IMG/VR virus record: IMGVR_UViG_3300007628_000004 | Location: 1-22,978 of that record | Source of the DNA: a virus | DNA length: 22,978 bases | Strand: one strand, 5' to 3' | Shown here: positions 755 to 8,589 of the stretch, in pieces | Layout of the letters: every line of letters starts with the position of its first letter | Position numbering within the stretch: the stretch's first letter is position 1 | Position numbers and translations under genes: made by a program | The notes under the pieces: model-generated | What the model was told of the DNA's origin: nothing | What the model saw: the letters and a program-made list of their open reading frames with translations, nothing else | Database searches by the model: none

Positions 755-773
755 AATAAATTAGAAATAGTGT

Positions 774-790
774 AACCTTTTTAAAAGGTT
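774..790. repeat. Perfect palindrome AACCTTTT-T-AAAAGGTT
   Basis: Two 8-base arms are perfectly complementary around one central T. The palindrome sits between the acidic-protein gene and the terminator at 802-829. It could be an operator-like protein site or a hairpin assisting termination. Its left arm lies within the 12-mer TGTAACCTTTTT, which occurs again at 1557. Confidence 0.5.
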
Positions 791-801
791 CACGTATAAT
801 A

Positions 802-829
802 GGGTGTACAATATAGTACGCCCTTTTTT
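802..829 (+). terminator. Rho-independent terminator
   Basis: GGGTGTAC (802-809) pairs with GTACGCCC (816-823) around loop AATATA. The 8-bp stem has one G-U pair and is followed directly by six T residues (824-829). It closes the first group of small genes. Confidence 0.85.
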
Positions 830-830
830 A

Positions 831-1113
831 TGATCTAAGCCATCATTTAAAAGGACCGCCCAAACGAAAACCGAGAGGGGGATCAACTTCAATCATAGGT
901 AGACTTGTCACCGAAGATTGTTGGATCAGATAATTTAGCTACTGAACAATTGGGTTCAGGTCACAAAAGATAGTGATGTTGGGCAAAGGTATAAGCATCA
1001 ACTTTAGGAGGGGAATCATGCTTACTATAAAAGTTAGAATAAATCTTTGATTTATGACGAGGGAGCGGAGCGACTGAGTTACGAAGTTCGTTACTTTTGC
1101 TAAATAAGCTTTT
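831..1113 (+). ncRNA. Gene-free, hairpin-rich stretch; candidate structured RNA or leader
   Basis: This stretch of about 280 bases between a terminator and the next small gene has no convincing protein gene and contains more G-rich blocks than its neighbours. Hairpins seen by eye: GATCAACTTCAATC (881-894) with GATTGTTGGATC (916-927), imperfect; CTGAAC (942-947) with GTTCAG (954-959), perfect, 6-nt loop; TCAC (961-964) with GTGA (973-976); TAAGCAT (992-998) with ATGCTTA (1018-1024), perfect; ATAAATC (1039-1045) with GATTTAT (1049-1055), perfect with a TTT loop; and GTTACGAA (1078-1085) with TTCGTTAC (1087-1094), one mismatch. The GGGAGCGGAGCGACT block before the last hairpin resembles structured-RNA flanks. 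It could be a small RNA, a cis-regulatory leader for the two Cys-rich genes downstream, or both. No known RNA class was recognised, and pairing was judged only by eye. Confidence 0.45.
1006..1050 (+). promoter_or_regulatory. Shine-Dalgarno plus 10-codon mini-ORF inside a hairpin
   Basis: AGGAGGGG (1006-1013) lies four bases before ATG 1018, which opens a 10-codon frame (MLTIKVRINL) ending at TGA 1048-1050. The ribosome site lies in the loop, and the ATG in the 3' arm, of the 992-1024 hairpin. The mini-ORF ends inside the next hairpin (1039-1055). This arrangement resembles a leader peptide or translational switch. It is the only clear Shine-Dalgarno-like sequence noticed in the window, where genes otherwise use A/T-rich leaders. 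It may be coincidental. Confidence 0.3.
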
Positions 1114-3662: not shown

Positions 3663-4230
3663 TATAGAAGGTGGACAGGTTGTATTTCAACCAGAATTCT
3701 TAGCCGTTCCAGCATTTAAAAAAATATGGGATAGAGATAAGTCTAAAAATAAACATAGGGCATATAAAGAATTGTCTTATGTTGTTTTTTTAGGTGATAA
3801 TACTATTTTAAACCCGTATGGGAATTTAGATGAACTCTTTAAAGGGGAACTACTAAAGAAAGATATACTAGAAAATTCTGACTATAAGATAGACGATACC
3901 TTACAAAAAGCAATAGATAAGTTTTCTGAAATAAAAGAAACTACATCGTCTAGACTGTTAAAAGCAGCTAAAGTAGCAGCTAGTAAATTGTCACAATACT
4001 TCGAAGAAAAGGTTAATTTTGATGATGTAGACGTTAATGGGAAACCAGTTTATTCAGCTAGGGACTTGGCATCAAATTTAGGTTCTGTCGGTAAGATAGT
4101 AGAGTCATTGAAAAAGTTAGAAGATCAAGTACTCAAAGAACAATTAGATGGTGGTACTGCTAGAGGTAATGTGACAATTAATCCATTTGAATTACCAAGT
4201 GATGATATAGATTACGGAGAAGATGTATAA
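3649..4230 (+). CDS. Candidate small terminase or TerL-associated protein, 193 aa
   Basis: It lies directly upstream of TerL, overlapping its start by 8 bases (ATG 4223, TAA 4228-4230), and follows the HU/IHF-like gene with a 14-base overlap. The N-terminal part has a mixed fold with FKKIWDRDKSKNKHRAYKEL (23-42), a segment I associate with a conserved family in crAss-like and related phages. The middle is a long helical region (about 80-120, KETTSSRLLKAAKVAASKL), followed by another helix (SVGKIVESLKKLEDQVLKEQ), and the tail is acidic. TerS subunits are typically small, helical and just before TerL, so position argues for TerS. Sequence alone does not prove it, and no HTH is obvious. Confidence 0.5.
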   Translation: MRAYDIEGGQVVFQPEFLAVPAFKKIWDRDKSKNKHRAYKELSYVVFLGDNTILNPYGNLDELFKGELLKKDILENSDYKIDDTLQKAIDKFSEIKETTSSRLLKAAKVAASKLSQYFEEKVNFDDVDVNGKPVYSARDLASNLGSVGKIVESLKKLEDQVLKEQLDGGTARGNVTINPFELPSDDIDYGEDV

Positions 4231-6238
4231 AGTAGAAATAAAATCAACAAACAATGCCGATAAATTTAGACCTGCTGCAATAGAGTATGATAAAACAGGT
4301 CGATATACTGCTGCTCCAAAAGGGACAAAAGAGTATAGGGATTATTGGAAAGAGCAATTAGAGCGTTGCATACATGGTTATGTCACAGATGATGGTGAAT
4401 TCATCACTGGCTACTTTTATTTTTACTTAAATTTCTGTAGAATAAATGTAACCAAACGTAGAAAGTATAAAGACAGATTAGGTAGAGAAAGAGAAAAAGA
4501 AGATAGAATAGAATCTTTTCCTTGGTTTTATGACTACGATAGATCCTATTTTGATACCATAGAAGAAGCAGAAACACAAGGTAGACATTTGGCTGTACTT
4601 AAAAAAAGGGGTGCAGGTTATTCCTTTAAGGGAGCGGCAATGTTAATTAGGAATTATTATTGTTTACCTAAATCAAAATCTTATGCTATTGCATCAGAGA
4701 TGGAATTCTTAGTTAAAGATGGTCTTATAACTAAGGCTTGGGAAATGATGTCTTTTATAGATGAGCACACTGGTCTTGGAAAAAAGAGACAGAAGGTTGA
4801 TCAATCAACTCACAAACGGGCATCTTTAATAAAAAAAGCAGGGGATGGCACAGAATTAGAGATAGGATATAGATCAGAAATAATGGCTATATCCCTAAAA
4901 AATGATCCGCAAAAAGCTCGTGGTAAAAGAGGTAAATTAATATTATGGGAAGAAGCTGGTAAATTTCCTAATTTAAAAACAGCTTGGCAGATTGCCAGGC
5001 CGTCAGTAGAAAATGATGATGGATCTGCCTATGGGCTTATGATTGCCTTTGGTACTGGTGGTGAGGAAGGTTCTGATTATGATGGTCTTAAAGATATATT
5101 TTATGAGCCTAAAGGGTATAATGCATTAGAGATTGAAAACATATGGGATGATGGTAATCCAGATAAACCATGTGGCTTCTTTGTACCACAATATGTCAAT
5201 ATGGCAACTCCTAAAGATTATTCAATACCTCTAATGGATGAGAATGGGAATTCAAATATTGCAGAAGCCAAGAAATATTCTTTAGAGAAACGTCAAGAAA
5301 TTGTAGATAATGCTAGTGATAGGAATGCAGTAGATAGATATATTGCAGAACGTCCATTCAATCCAATGGAAGCATCACTGGAAATTAGTGGTAACATATT
5401 TCCGAAGAAAGCATTGATGTCTCACTTAGCTGAGATACGAAATAGTAAATCAATATCTGATTTTAAACAAGTAGGTTATTTAGAATGGACCAGTGAAGGT
5501 AGATTGAGATGGGAATTAGATCCTAACTTGAGAGCATTGAATAGGTATAGGTTAGAACCAGGGGATGATAAAACAGGAGCCATAGTTATATGGGAGCATC
5601 CGGACGAGGATCCTCAACATGGTCTATATATTGCAGGTGTTGACCCATATGACCATGATAAATCAACAACTAACTCACTTGGTTCATGTTTCATATATAA
5701 ACGTTTTCAAACATACGAGAAATATCACGATATGATAGTAGCAGAATATACAGGTAGACCAGATCGTGCTGATGATTTTTATGAGATGGTGCGTAAATTA
5801 ACTACTTATTATAATGCTACTATTTTATATGAGAATGAAAAGAAAGGTATGTTTGATTATTTTAGGCGTAAACATTGTGAGTTTTTACTTGCTGATCAGC
5901 CAGGTTTAATTAAAGATATTGTTAGAGACTCAAAAGTCGAAAGAGCAAAAGGTATTCATATGAATGAACAAATCAAAATGTTTGGAGAAGGTGCGATAAG
6001 GGATTATCTTATTGAAGAGTTTGCGCCTGGTCAAACGAATATCTTAAAAATATATTCCGAACCTCTTTTAGAAGAGCTCATAAATTATAATGACACTGGT
6101 AACTTTGACCGTGTTATGGCATTTATGATGGTTATAATATATAACAGGGAATTGTTTAATGTACATATAAAACAAAAAAAAGAGGAGTCAAGAGAAAACA
6201 TGTTATTCTCTACTCCTTTATTTACAGATAAATTTTAA
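4223..6238 (+). CDS. terL: Terminase large subunit (TerL), packaging ATPase-nuclease
   Basis: It cuts concatemeric DNA and pumps it into the prohead through the portal using ATP. The 671-aa length is typical. The ATPase part shows an unusual Walker A, KKRGAGYSFKGA (127-138), lacking the usual GK-S/T. Walker B-like LILWEEA (239-245) carries the catalytic-type glutamates E243/E244, and a coupling-motif-like FGTGG lies at 276-280. The C-terminal RNase H-like nuclease has YIAGVDPYDHDK (469-480, D474), LYENEK (535-540, E537 or E539) and NFDRVMAFMM (627-636, D629), a plausible metal-binding acid triad. It starts 8 bases inside the preceding gene and is followed eleven bases later by the portal gene. 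Assignment is strong; the exact Walker A alignment is by eye. Confidence 0.9.
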   Translation: MYKVEIKSTNNADKFRPAAIEYDKTGRYTAAPKGTKEYRDYWKEQLERCIHGYVTDDGEFITGYFYFYLNFCRINVTKRRKYKDRLGREREKEDRIESFPWFYDYDRSYFDTIEEAETQGRHLAVLKKRGAGYSFKGAAMLIRNYYCLPKSKSYAIASEMEFLVKDGLITKAWEMMSFIDEHTGLGKKRQKVDQSTHKRASLIKKAGDGTELEIGYRSEIMAISLKNDPQKARGKRGKLILWEEAGKFPNLKTAWQIARPSVENDDGSAYGLMIAFGTGGEEGSDYDGLKDIFYEPKGYNALEIENIWDDGNPDKPCGFFVPQYVNMATPKDYSIPLMDENGNSNIAEAKKYSLEKRQEIVDNASDRNAVDRYIAERPFNPMEASLEISGNIFPKKALMSHLAEIRNSKSISDFKQVGYLEWTSEGRLRWELDPNLRALNRYRLEPGDDKTGAIVIWEHPDEDPQHGLYIAGVDPYDHDKSTTNSLGSCFIYKRFQTYEKYHDMIVAEYTGRPDRADDFYEMVRKLTTYYNATILYENEKKGMFDYFRRKHCEFLLADQPGLIKDIVRDSKVERAKGIHMNEQIKMFGEGAIRDYLIEEFAPGQTNILKIYSEPLLEELINYNDTGNFDRVMAFMMVIIYNRELFNVHIKQKKEESRENMLFSTPLFTDKF

Positions 6239-6249
6239 AGCTAGCTTAA

Positions 6250-8589
6250 ATGAAAGACTATAATTCAGCATTTCCTGCTCAGAAAAAGCCTTTACGTGAA
6301 AAAACGAAGGCTTGGCGTGAAGCATGCGTAAATGGTATTATAGGTAGAATTGGACAAGGTAGAATTGGTTCCAGAAATAGAAGGGATAATATGGCCATAC
6401 TCTACGATTTATACAATGGTCAATTTAACAAAGATGACCTGAAGTATATTGTAGATCCCTTTGAAGTAGGTGACACATTTCCTGCCTCTCCTCAAGAATT
6501 TAATATTATTAGGCCAAAGGTTGACCTATTGATAGGTGAAGAATCGAAGAGGCCTTTTAACTACTTAGTAATACAGACTAATGACGAAGCTGTTAGTCAA
6601 TTGCAGGAAAAGAAAAAACAAATGATTACCCAATATATGTTACAAGAATTGGGTATAGGCGAAGAAGATCTTGAAGTACAAACGCCACCTCAAATAGAAA
6701 AATATTTAAAGTCTACGTATCGGACTAATGCTGAAAGGCAAGCAAATCATGCCTTAAAGTATTTAAAAGAACAATTAGATTTACAAGATGAATTATTGCG
6801 AGGATGGAAAGATGGTTTGGTTGCAGGAGAAGAAATATATTATGTAGGTATTGTAAATGGGGAACCTGTATTAAAACGCATGAATCCCATGAATGCAGAC
6901 TACGATGGTAATAGTGATATTGAAGTAATAGAAGAAGGAGATTGGTTTGCGTATGAACAAGAATTGACAGTAGAAGAAGTTAATGATCTTCATTATGACA
7001 AACTTGACGAAACAACTTTAAACAAACTATTAGAAAAACAAAATACAGTTGGTGGTTTTGGCAGTGGACCAATGGAAAGCGGTGGTGTATCTTACAGATT
7101 AAACATCACAGATACTGGTGTCACTAGCCCATTTGAACGTCAATGGAATGCAGTTAGTGTATATCATGTTGTGTGGAGATCTTATCAAAAGATAGGATTT
7201 CTTACCATTACAAATGAATATGGTGATGAAGAAGTTATTCAAGTTGATGAAAACTATAAAGAACAAGAAGGTGATGTTATAGAGTGGGAGTGGGTAGGTC
7301 AAATTTGGGAAGGTTATCGTGCAGGAGAAGATGTATTTTTTGGCATAGAACCTTTAGATTATGTAGACACACCTATAGATAGTCCGGAACGTCAAAAATT
7401 GCCTTATACTGGTGTAATATATAGTAATACTAATTCAGATAATAAATCATTGGTGGCAATAATGAAACCATTACAATATATGTATATTGTATTGTGGTAT
7501 CGTTTAGAGTTAATGATTGCTAGAGATAAAGGGCGTGTGATTAATATGGATATTACACAAATACCTAAATCTATGGGTGTTACTCCTGAGAAATGGATAC
7601 ATTACTTATCTGCTGTTGGTGTAAACTTTATTAATCCTTACGAAGAAGGTTGGGATATACCTGGTCGAGAAGGTGGAAAGCCTGCTCAATTTAATCAAAT
7701 TTCTTCTCAAGATTTAGGTATGTCTAATGTAATTGCAGGTTATGTAGACCTACTTATGAAAATAGAAGATATGCTTGGTGAATTATCAGGAGTATCTAAG
7801 CAACGACAAGGTTCAATACAACAACGTGAATTAGTAGGTAATGTAGAAAGGGCAGTGATTCAATCTAGTCACATTACTGAACCTTTATTTTGGAAACATG
7901 GTAAAGCAAAAAGATCAGCATTAAATATGTTGTTAAATACTGCTAAACATGCATGGAAAAAATCTGGTAAAAAGAAATTACATTACTTATACAGTGATGG
8001 TGCTCGTATTTTTATGGATATTACGGATGATTTTTTATATGCAGACTTAGGTATATTTGCTACTGATGCCACTGAAGAACATCTTAACTTACAAAAAATT
8101 GAATCATTGTTACAACCTGCTATGCAAAATGGAGCAACTCTTGCTGAAGCTGCAGAAGTATTAACTACAGGTAATCTTTCAGATATTAAAGAAAGATTAA
8201 ATGATATAGATCAAAGAAGGATGAAACTACAGCAAGAACAACAACAAGCTGAGCAGCAAATGCAGCAAATGGAAGTTCAAGCAGAAATGGATAAAGCCGC
8301 TGAAGAGAATCGAATTAAAGAAGAAGATTCTATACGTAAAGCAGAAACTCAGTTAGAAGTAGCATTGATTAATGCTGGAGTAAAAGAAAGTGGAGATAGT
8401 GATTTCAAACAGCAATTAGATGCTAAGAAATTAGAACTTGATGCCATGAAACAGCAAAATGAAATAAACCTTAAGCGAAATCAGTTAAATGAAACTGAAC
8501 GTAAGAATCGCAAAGATGAGCAATTGAAACAAGAAGAAATTGCTATCAAAAGAAAACAAGCAAATAAGAAACCTACAAACAGTAATTAA
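6250..8589 (+). CDS. Portal protein, 779 aa
   Basis: It forms the dodecameric ring at the capsid vertex that TerL docks on and that nucleates head assembly. The order after TerL and the 779-aa length match P22/crAss-like portals. The N-terminal part has a region around IRPKVDLLIGEESKRP (87-102) typical of such portals. The core includes a long insertion rich in beta elements (about 200-400), then helices around LLMKIEDMLGELSGVSKQ. From about residue 650 to the end runs a Gln/Glu/Lys-rich coiled coil (QQEQQQAEQQMQQMEVQ), a barrel-like tail seen in long portals of this group. It starts eleven bases after TerL and ends two bases before the scaffold-like gene, indicating one operon. Confidence 0.85.
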   Translation: MKDYNSAFPAQKKPLREKTKAWREACVNGIIGRIGQGRIGSRNRRDNMAILYDLYNGQFNKDDLKYIVDPFEVGDTFPASPQEFNIIRPKVDLLIGEESKRPFNYLVIQTNDEAVSQLQEKKKQMITQYMLQELGIGEEDLEVQTPPQIEKYLKSTYRTNAERQANHALKYLKEQLDLQDELLRGWKDGLVAGEEIYYVGIVNGEPVLKRMNPMNADYDGNSDIEVIEEGDWFAYEQELTVEEVNDLHYDKLDETTLNKLLEKQNTVGGFGSGPMESGGVSYRLNITDTGVTSPFERQWNAVSVYHVVWRSYQKIGFLTITNEYGDEEVIQVDENYKEQEGDVIEWEWVGQIWEGYRAGEDVFFGIEPLDYVDTPIDSPERQKLPYTGVIYSNTNSDNKSLVAIMKPLQYMYIVLWYRLELMIARDKGRVINMDITQIPKSMGVTPEKWIHYLSAVGVNFINPYEEGWDIPGREGGKPAQFNQISSQDLGMSNVIAGYVDLLMKIEDMLGELSGVSKQRQGSIQQRELVGNVERAVIQSSHITEPLFWKHGKAKRSALNMLLNTAKHAWKKSGKKKLHYLYSDGARIFMDITDDFLYADLGIFATDATEEHLNLQKIESLLQPAMQNGATLAEAAEVLTTGNLSDIKERLNDIDQRRMKLQQEQQQAEQQMQQMEVQAEMDKAAEENRIKEEDSIRKAETQLEVALINAGVKESGDSDFKQQLDAKKLELDAMKQQNEINLKRNQLNETERKNRKDEQLKQEEIAIKRKQANKKPTNSN

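Follow-up and report, generated by a model that had tools for sequence, protein, structure and literature searches.

Phage-Associated Structured RNAs

The put RNA of phage HK022 forms short hairpins after its promoter and brings about antitermination in cis on its own operon. The pRNA of phage phi29 is a phage-encoded structured RNA that functions in DNA packaging. GOLLD and ROOL are orphan structured RNAs associated with phages, the function of which is unknown. The 6S RNA is essentially one long bulged hairpin, with the 6S-Flavo form coming from Bacteroidota. The crAss-like phages rank with the most abundant viruses in the human gut, and how they are regulated is in large part not understood.

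The Window and Its Gene-Free Stretch

The DNA analysed here, termed the window, is the virus contig IMGVR_UViG_3300007628_000004 at its full length of 22,978 bases. It is a fragment of a crAss-like phage with a TerL, portal and MCP block, in which profile searches identified TerL at 4223-6238 (phrog_6681) and the portal at 6250-8589 (phrog_6547). The window TerL matched 159 phage records with crAss-like phages at the top, and the annotated relatives retrieved via TerL belong to the Crassvirales, Suoliviridae. Upstream of the stretch of interest the gene at 208-558 occupies the position of a gene annotated as ‘putative chaperonin’ in relatives, and a relative of it also sits before the RNA in locus L085; a GroES-like protein used as bait for relatives found none.

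An initial annotation of this DNA had singled out positions 831-1113 as a hairpin-rich, gene-free stretch with G-rich blocks atypical of the neighbourhood. That description holds, in that hairpins are present, no + strand ORF of at least 30 aa lies between 755 and 1113, and the G+C content is 0.39-0.41 vs 0.29-0.36 in the adjoining windows of sequence. The only ORF reaching into the stretch runs along the - strand (761-892), begins with TTG and encodes 43 aa. The folding energy of 831-1113 is ordinary (z = -0.98) and that of 1039-1112 likewise uninformative (z = -0.96), such that the abundance of hairpins could by itself be due to chance and proves nothing. The case for structure in 831-1113 is the covariation among homologues described below, not folding energy.

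Downstream of the stretch, the two tiny Cys-rich genes and the second terminator at about 1570-1604 that had been reported are all present. The products of these genes (1114-1233 and 1236-1484) are small Cys-rich proteins with weak, sub-threshold matches to zinc-type Pfam families. The proposal that RNA and two metal-binding peptides make up a self-contained unit was not supported, with a relative of the 1114 gene found only in L013, the closest relative of the window, and with some 50 other loci having the RNA beside holin/endolysin genes. The pair of Cys-rich genes does not regularly accompany the RNA. In L013 Cys-rich counterparts follow the RNA (L013:412-836), one found as a relative of 1114-1233 and the other looking by eye to be related to 1236-1484.

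Homologues and the Conserved Core

The conserved structured RNA lies on the + strand at 836-1025, the outer ends being estimated, with homologues in L013, L005, L025, L085, L030, L382 and L277; for 1030-1113 conservation was not seen among homologues. By eye the relatives have in common AACUUC, a hairpin and GUUGGAUCAGRYA. In the window this core occupies 873-938 (+ strand) and consists of AACUUC, hairpin P3 (CAAUC at 890-894 with GAUUG at 916-920) and UUGGAUCAGAUA, the layout being AACUUC - P3 - GUUGGAUCAGAUA. The family consensus is AAACUU - P3 - UUGGAWCAGRYA with nearly invariant P3 flanks. Among the relatives, L013 (obtained from the TerL relatives) is 85% identical to the window over 921-979, and L015/L016 hold an exact 17-mer, with a TerL that is only 36% identical.

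Searches with a DNA pattern of the core, derived from the window, L025 and L016, turned up numerous intergenic copies elsewhere among virus contigs, coding chance matches being discarded by eye. The pattern contained AACUUC and UGUUGGAWCAGR and the invariance of these segments is therefore partly selected. This first search did not select for the inner pairs of P3, for the A 5′ of AAC, for the YA that follows CAGR or for the inner loop CCUAAUAAAGAUGG. The covariance model R1 was built from 24 of the pattern-found sequences, which are mostly but not all non-crAss since L170, L187, L217 and L218 carry distant crAss-type TerL genes. R1 recovers the window at E = 1.2e-6 and, in 100 crAss-type loci, L025, L015/L016, L099 and L030, with L013 and L005 detected weakly; its match in L060 was judged to be coding, lying within an open stretch. 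The crAss-like L277 and L382, with TerL 58% and 55% identical to that of the window, score 67 and 47 bits with R1 and both have the non-crAss inner loop CCUAAUAAAGAUGG, joining the clades in one family. A pattern taken from the 3′ part of the RNA (GGAGCGGAGCGACTGAGTTACG) gave zero matches. One virus contig, IMGVR_UViG_3300022690_000487, holds two differing copies of the core (L244 and L259).

A conserved protein frame had been named beforehand as the finding that would speak against a structured RNA, and none runs through the homologues. Some members allow a KLQDPNKDGRLLEQ-like coding reading, which was rejected because stops interrupt the frame in other members and because P3 covaries.

Covariation and Helices

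Compensatory changes, set beforehand as a test, were found in the alignments and exceed those in the controls, as would be expected of a structured RNA under selection. Across 70 R1-fitted matches, a set that contains a few false matches and an alignment biased towards the structure, 98.9% of the cells in P3 are paired with two-sided changes in five of its seven pairs. The P3 covariation score is 0.32 vs 0.075 in shuffled alignments (0/500 reach the score) and at most 0.064 with the partners slid. Because the fitted alignment leans to the structure and includes false matches, an alignment made without fitting to it served as a check, and here AU, GC, CG and UA types are already seen in two inner P3 pairs. 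G-U is also among the pair types kept in P3, which fits RNA rather than DNA.

The helices were also compared in crAss-like sequences by swapping arms between sequences, the arms having been chosen by eye, which favours them. Pairing of P3 with its own arm was 0.97 vs 0.48 when swapped (0/20,000 permutations), that of hairpin P4 (CUGAAC/GUUCAG, 942-959, + strand) 1.00 vs 0.76 (2/720 permutations) and that of hairpin P5 (GUCAC/GUGAU, 960-977, + strand) 1.00 vs 0.67 (1/720 permutations). Support is weaker for P2a and P6. The former, a small hairpin (ACC/GGG) following ACGAAA at 864-880 on the + strand, pairs better unswapped in five crAss-like sequences (1/120 permutations) and is weak in the window itself. 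P6 is a possible hairpin (UAAGCAU/AUGCUUA, 992-1024, + strand) with the Shine-Dalgarno-like AGGAGGGG (1006-1013) in its loop, the stem in the window being one of two competing pairings. There was no clear support for a P1 helix.

Promoter-Like Elements and Terminators

A promoter-like element, TGTAACCTTTTT-n10-CGTATAATA, lies on the + strand of the window at 771-801. The same element precedes the RNA at nearly fixed spacing in L013, L005, L025, L085 and L030, and in the crAss-like loci scanned was seen on the + strand only. The form before the RNA in crAss-like phages is TGTAACCTTTT-n-ACGTATA (also written TGTAACC...CGTATA), with a related promoter-like element in L277 and L382. In many non-crAss phages the RNA is preceded by TAnnTTTG, which we take to be a promoter type pointing to Bacteroidota; this motif is found 20-80 bases upstream in 26 of 69 loci vs a background of 0.039, and in 1/69 antisense. 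The RNA hence has upstream the same-strand promoter-like element expected of a stand-alone small RNA.

The hairpin and T-run at 801-829 (+ strand) had been read as a terminator (802-829) behind which the RNA would need a start of its own. The hairpin and its T-run are real, but they stand directly 3′ of the promoter-like element and so fall where the presumed transcript would begin. The second terminator-like hairpin, at about 1570-1604 (1558-1607), overlaps a promoter-like element of the same type and has a counterpart at L013:1072-1115, in which the stem sequence differs with the pairing kept. Many loci have T-rich tracts resembling terminators downstream of the core.

More widely, TGTAACYTTTT-n-ACGTATA repeatedly precedes gene groups of crAss-like loci, always on the + strand and with near-constant spacing (window 771-801; L007:3927, 4767; L075:35, 1109, 1527, 2953; L085:532, 2144, 3832). 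A longer non-coding stretch, comparably placed and preceded by a similar promoter-like element, occurs at L007:3525-3910 and L075:1130-1500, the two being mutually alike and having no Rfam match, and L033 also has another such stretch. That of L007 and L075 is possibly a second structured RNA.

Genomic Setting

More than 10 diverged crAss-like phages have the RNA and the terminase gene on one strand with the RNA upstream, 2.8-8 kb from TerL in most, L217 being an exception with TerL on the strand opposite to the RNA. Where the RNA adjoins holin/endolysin genes in other phages, NinG, Erf or RusA-type genes are close by. Both neighbours are on the same strand as the RNA in 38 loci and on the opposite strand in 26, as counted from simple ORF calls that may miss small genes. 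The 26 opposite-strand loci indicate that the RNA is not the leader of one gene and, with the varied neighbours, that it is independent of any one neighbour gene or its strand. Together with the upstream promoter motif they argue for an independent RNA gene.

Distribution and Novelty

A specific pattern identified 96 stretches in viral contigs with P3 paired in nearly all. In 257 Gb of bacterial and archaeal genomes the same pattern identified 11 stretches, none of them convincing, and these were set aside as chance-like with P3 largely unpaired. The named phages crAss001, crAss002, phi14:2, phi4:1, DAC15, cr60, cr114, cr115, cr116, cr118, LMMB, Bohxovirus, ProJPt-Bp1 and Fpv2 gave weak matches only, without a convincing core, and Nonlabens phage P12024L has no RNA copy in the gap after its holin gene, such that none of the isolated phages examined holds a convincing copy.

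The Rfam search that the initial annotation had named as a check matched no family when the window and 12 related loci were scanned against Rfam 15 (4227 models) at gathering scores, and a relaxed scan of 760-1620 gave only chance-level matches (E of at least 0.3). No description was found in the open-access literature, with an unnamed listing in the supplements of large RNA screens (e.g., PMC8040213) being possible. The proposal of a new structured RNA is thus supported by homologues, compensatory changes, a promoter-like element, the absence of an Rfam match and its non-coding nature. The best reading is an undescribed, virus-specific RNA family absent from Rfam 15. The hosts are probably Bacteroidota, as suggested by the crAss-like relatives and the promoter type.

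Possible Functions

The RNA is probably a virus-encoded, stand-alone structured RNA working in trans. In the window it would be a phage RNA gene about 200 nt long, with shorter forms in some other phages, that has a promoter of its own and whose product folds into the hairpin core AAACUU - P3 - UUGGAWCAGRYA with further clade-specific helices. The invariant P3 flanks would then serve as a putative binding site, recognized by a protein or some other factor that the hosts share. More speculatively, the G-rich block near the 3′ end might contact 16S rRNA at its CCUCC tail, or some other C-rich target, and thereby alter translation in the infected cell.

In 37 of 68 loci a G-rich block stands 3′ of the core on its strand (vs 0.128 at random and 3/68 antisense), and in 18 of 69 loci such a block sits inside a hairpin loop (vs 29/344 random and 5/69 antisense). 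Being Shine-Dalgarno-like and near the 3′ end, it weakly suggests a link to translation. In part of the loci it may be a component of a terminator. Ribosomes of Bacteroidia hide their anti-Shine-Dalgarno sequence (PMC8710568), making action on translation an attractive if speculative reading of the block. In its fuller form the RNA would reprogram host translation, offering a Shine-Dalgarno-like loop to ribosomes that hide their anti-Shine-Dalgarno and docking through the AAACUU/UUGGAWCAG core on a ribosomal or RNA-binding protein, a mechanism that we hold to be rather improbable.

One point against action in trans is that the crAss-like copies have same-strand genes behind them, the arrangement expected of a leader. 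Transcribed at the start of an operon, a cis-acting leader or antitermination element might let RNA polymerase or ribosomes pass later terminators into the late genes, much in the way of the put RNA of HK022. This would suit the order of promoter-like element, RNA and same-strand TerL block in the window and its crAss-like relatives, the terminator-like hairpin downstream (about 1570-1604) and the 38 loci with both neighbours on the RNA strand. However, not all members share a strand with their neighbours, both flanking genes being opposite in 26 loci, the downstream gene varies between clades and T-rich, terminator-like tracts stand behind the core in many loci; a leader is unlikely on balance, yet deserves some weight. 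That the RNA serves DNA packaging or virion assembly in the manner of phi29 pRNA would suit a location close to terminase in crAss-like phages and close to late lysis genes elsewhere, but with the proteins tried no terminase was found near most non-crAss loci, and with no Rfam match either this role appears very improbable.

The chances are just as small for a DNA-level element, be it an origin, packaging or recombination site, for which an intergenic position and inverted repeats at module borders would speak; the kept G-U pairs and the single orientation of promoter-like elements and G-rich block relative to the core argue against it. Least probable is that the RNA imitates the 3′ end of the host 16S rRNA (helix 45 and UGGAUCA) and so titrates a 16S-binding factor. 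Here the similarity of UUGGAUCA to the sequence after 16S helix 45 and the GGAA-looped P3 of some members are set against the other P3 loops of many members, the lack of CCUCC in the RNA and the Bacteroidia 16S ends examined, which read GGAACA, GGAAUA, GGAUUA or GGACCA and not GGAUCA. In the Bacteroidia genomes L345, L348 and L349 the 16S 3′ ends have an altered anti-Shine-Dalgarno context (ACATCTCC, ACATCTCA).

Selection on the RNA structure across crAss-like and differently arranged phages indicates an important role during infection, which may relate to some trait peculiar to Bacteroidota. The covariance model, the defined core, the bridging sequences and the promoter-like motif are at hand for annotation and direct test.

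Comparison with Known Systems

Like the put RNA of HK022, the window RNA has short phage RNA hairpins after a promoter-like element; put acts in cis, whereas RNAs of the window type are without a same-strand neighbour on either side in 26 loci. It shares with phi29 pRNA that it is structured and phage-encoded, but is widespread beside lysis genes and has no match in Rfam. The 6S RNA and 6S-Flavo are likewise stand-alone small RNAs, from which the window RNA differs in being found in viruses, in matching no Rfam model and in not being one long bulged hairpin. GOLLD, ROOL and other orphan RNAs of this kind resemble it in being intergenic, conserved in fold and carried by phages, but are much larger and have a different core, and no Rfam family matches the window RNA.
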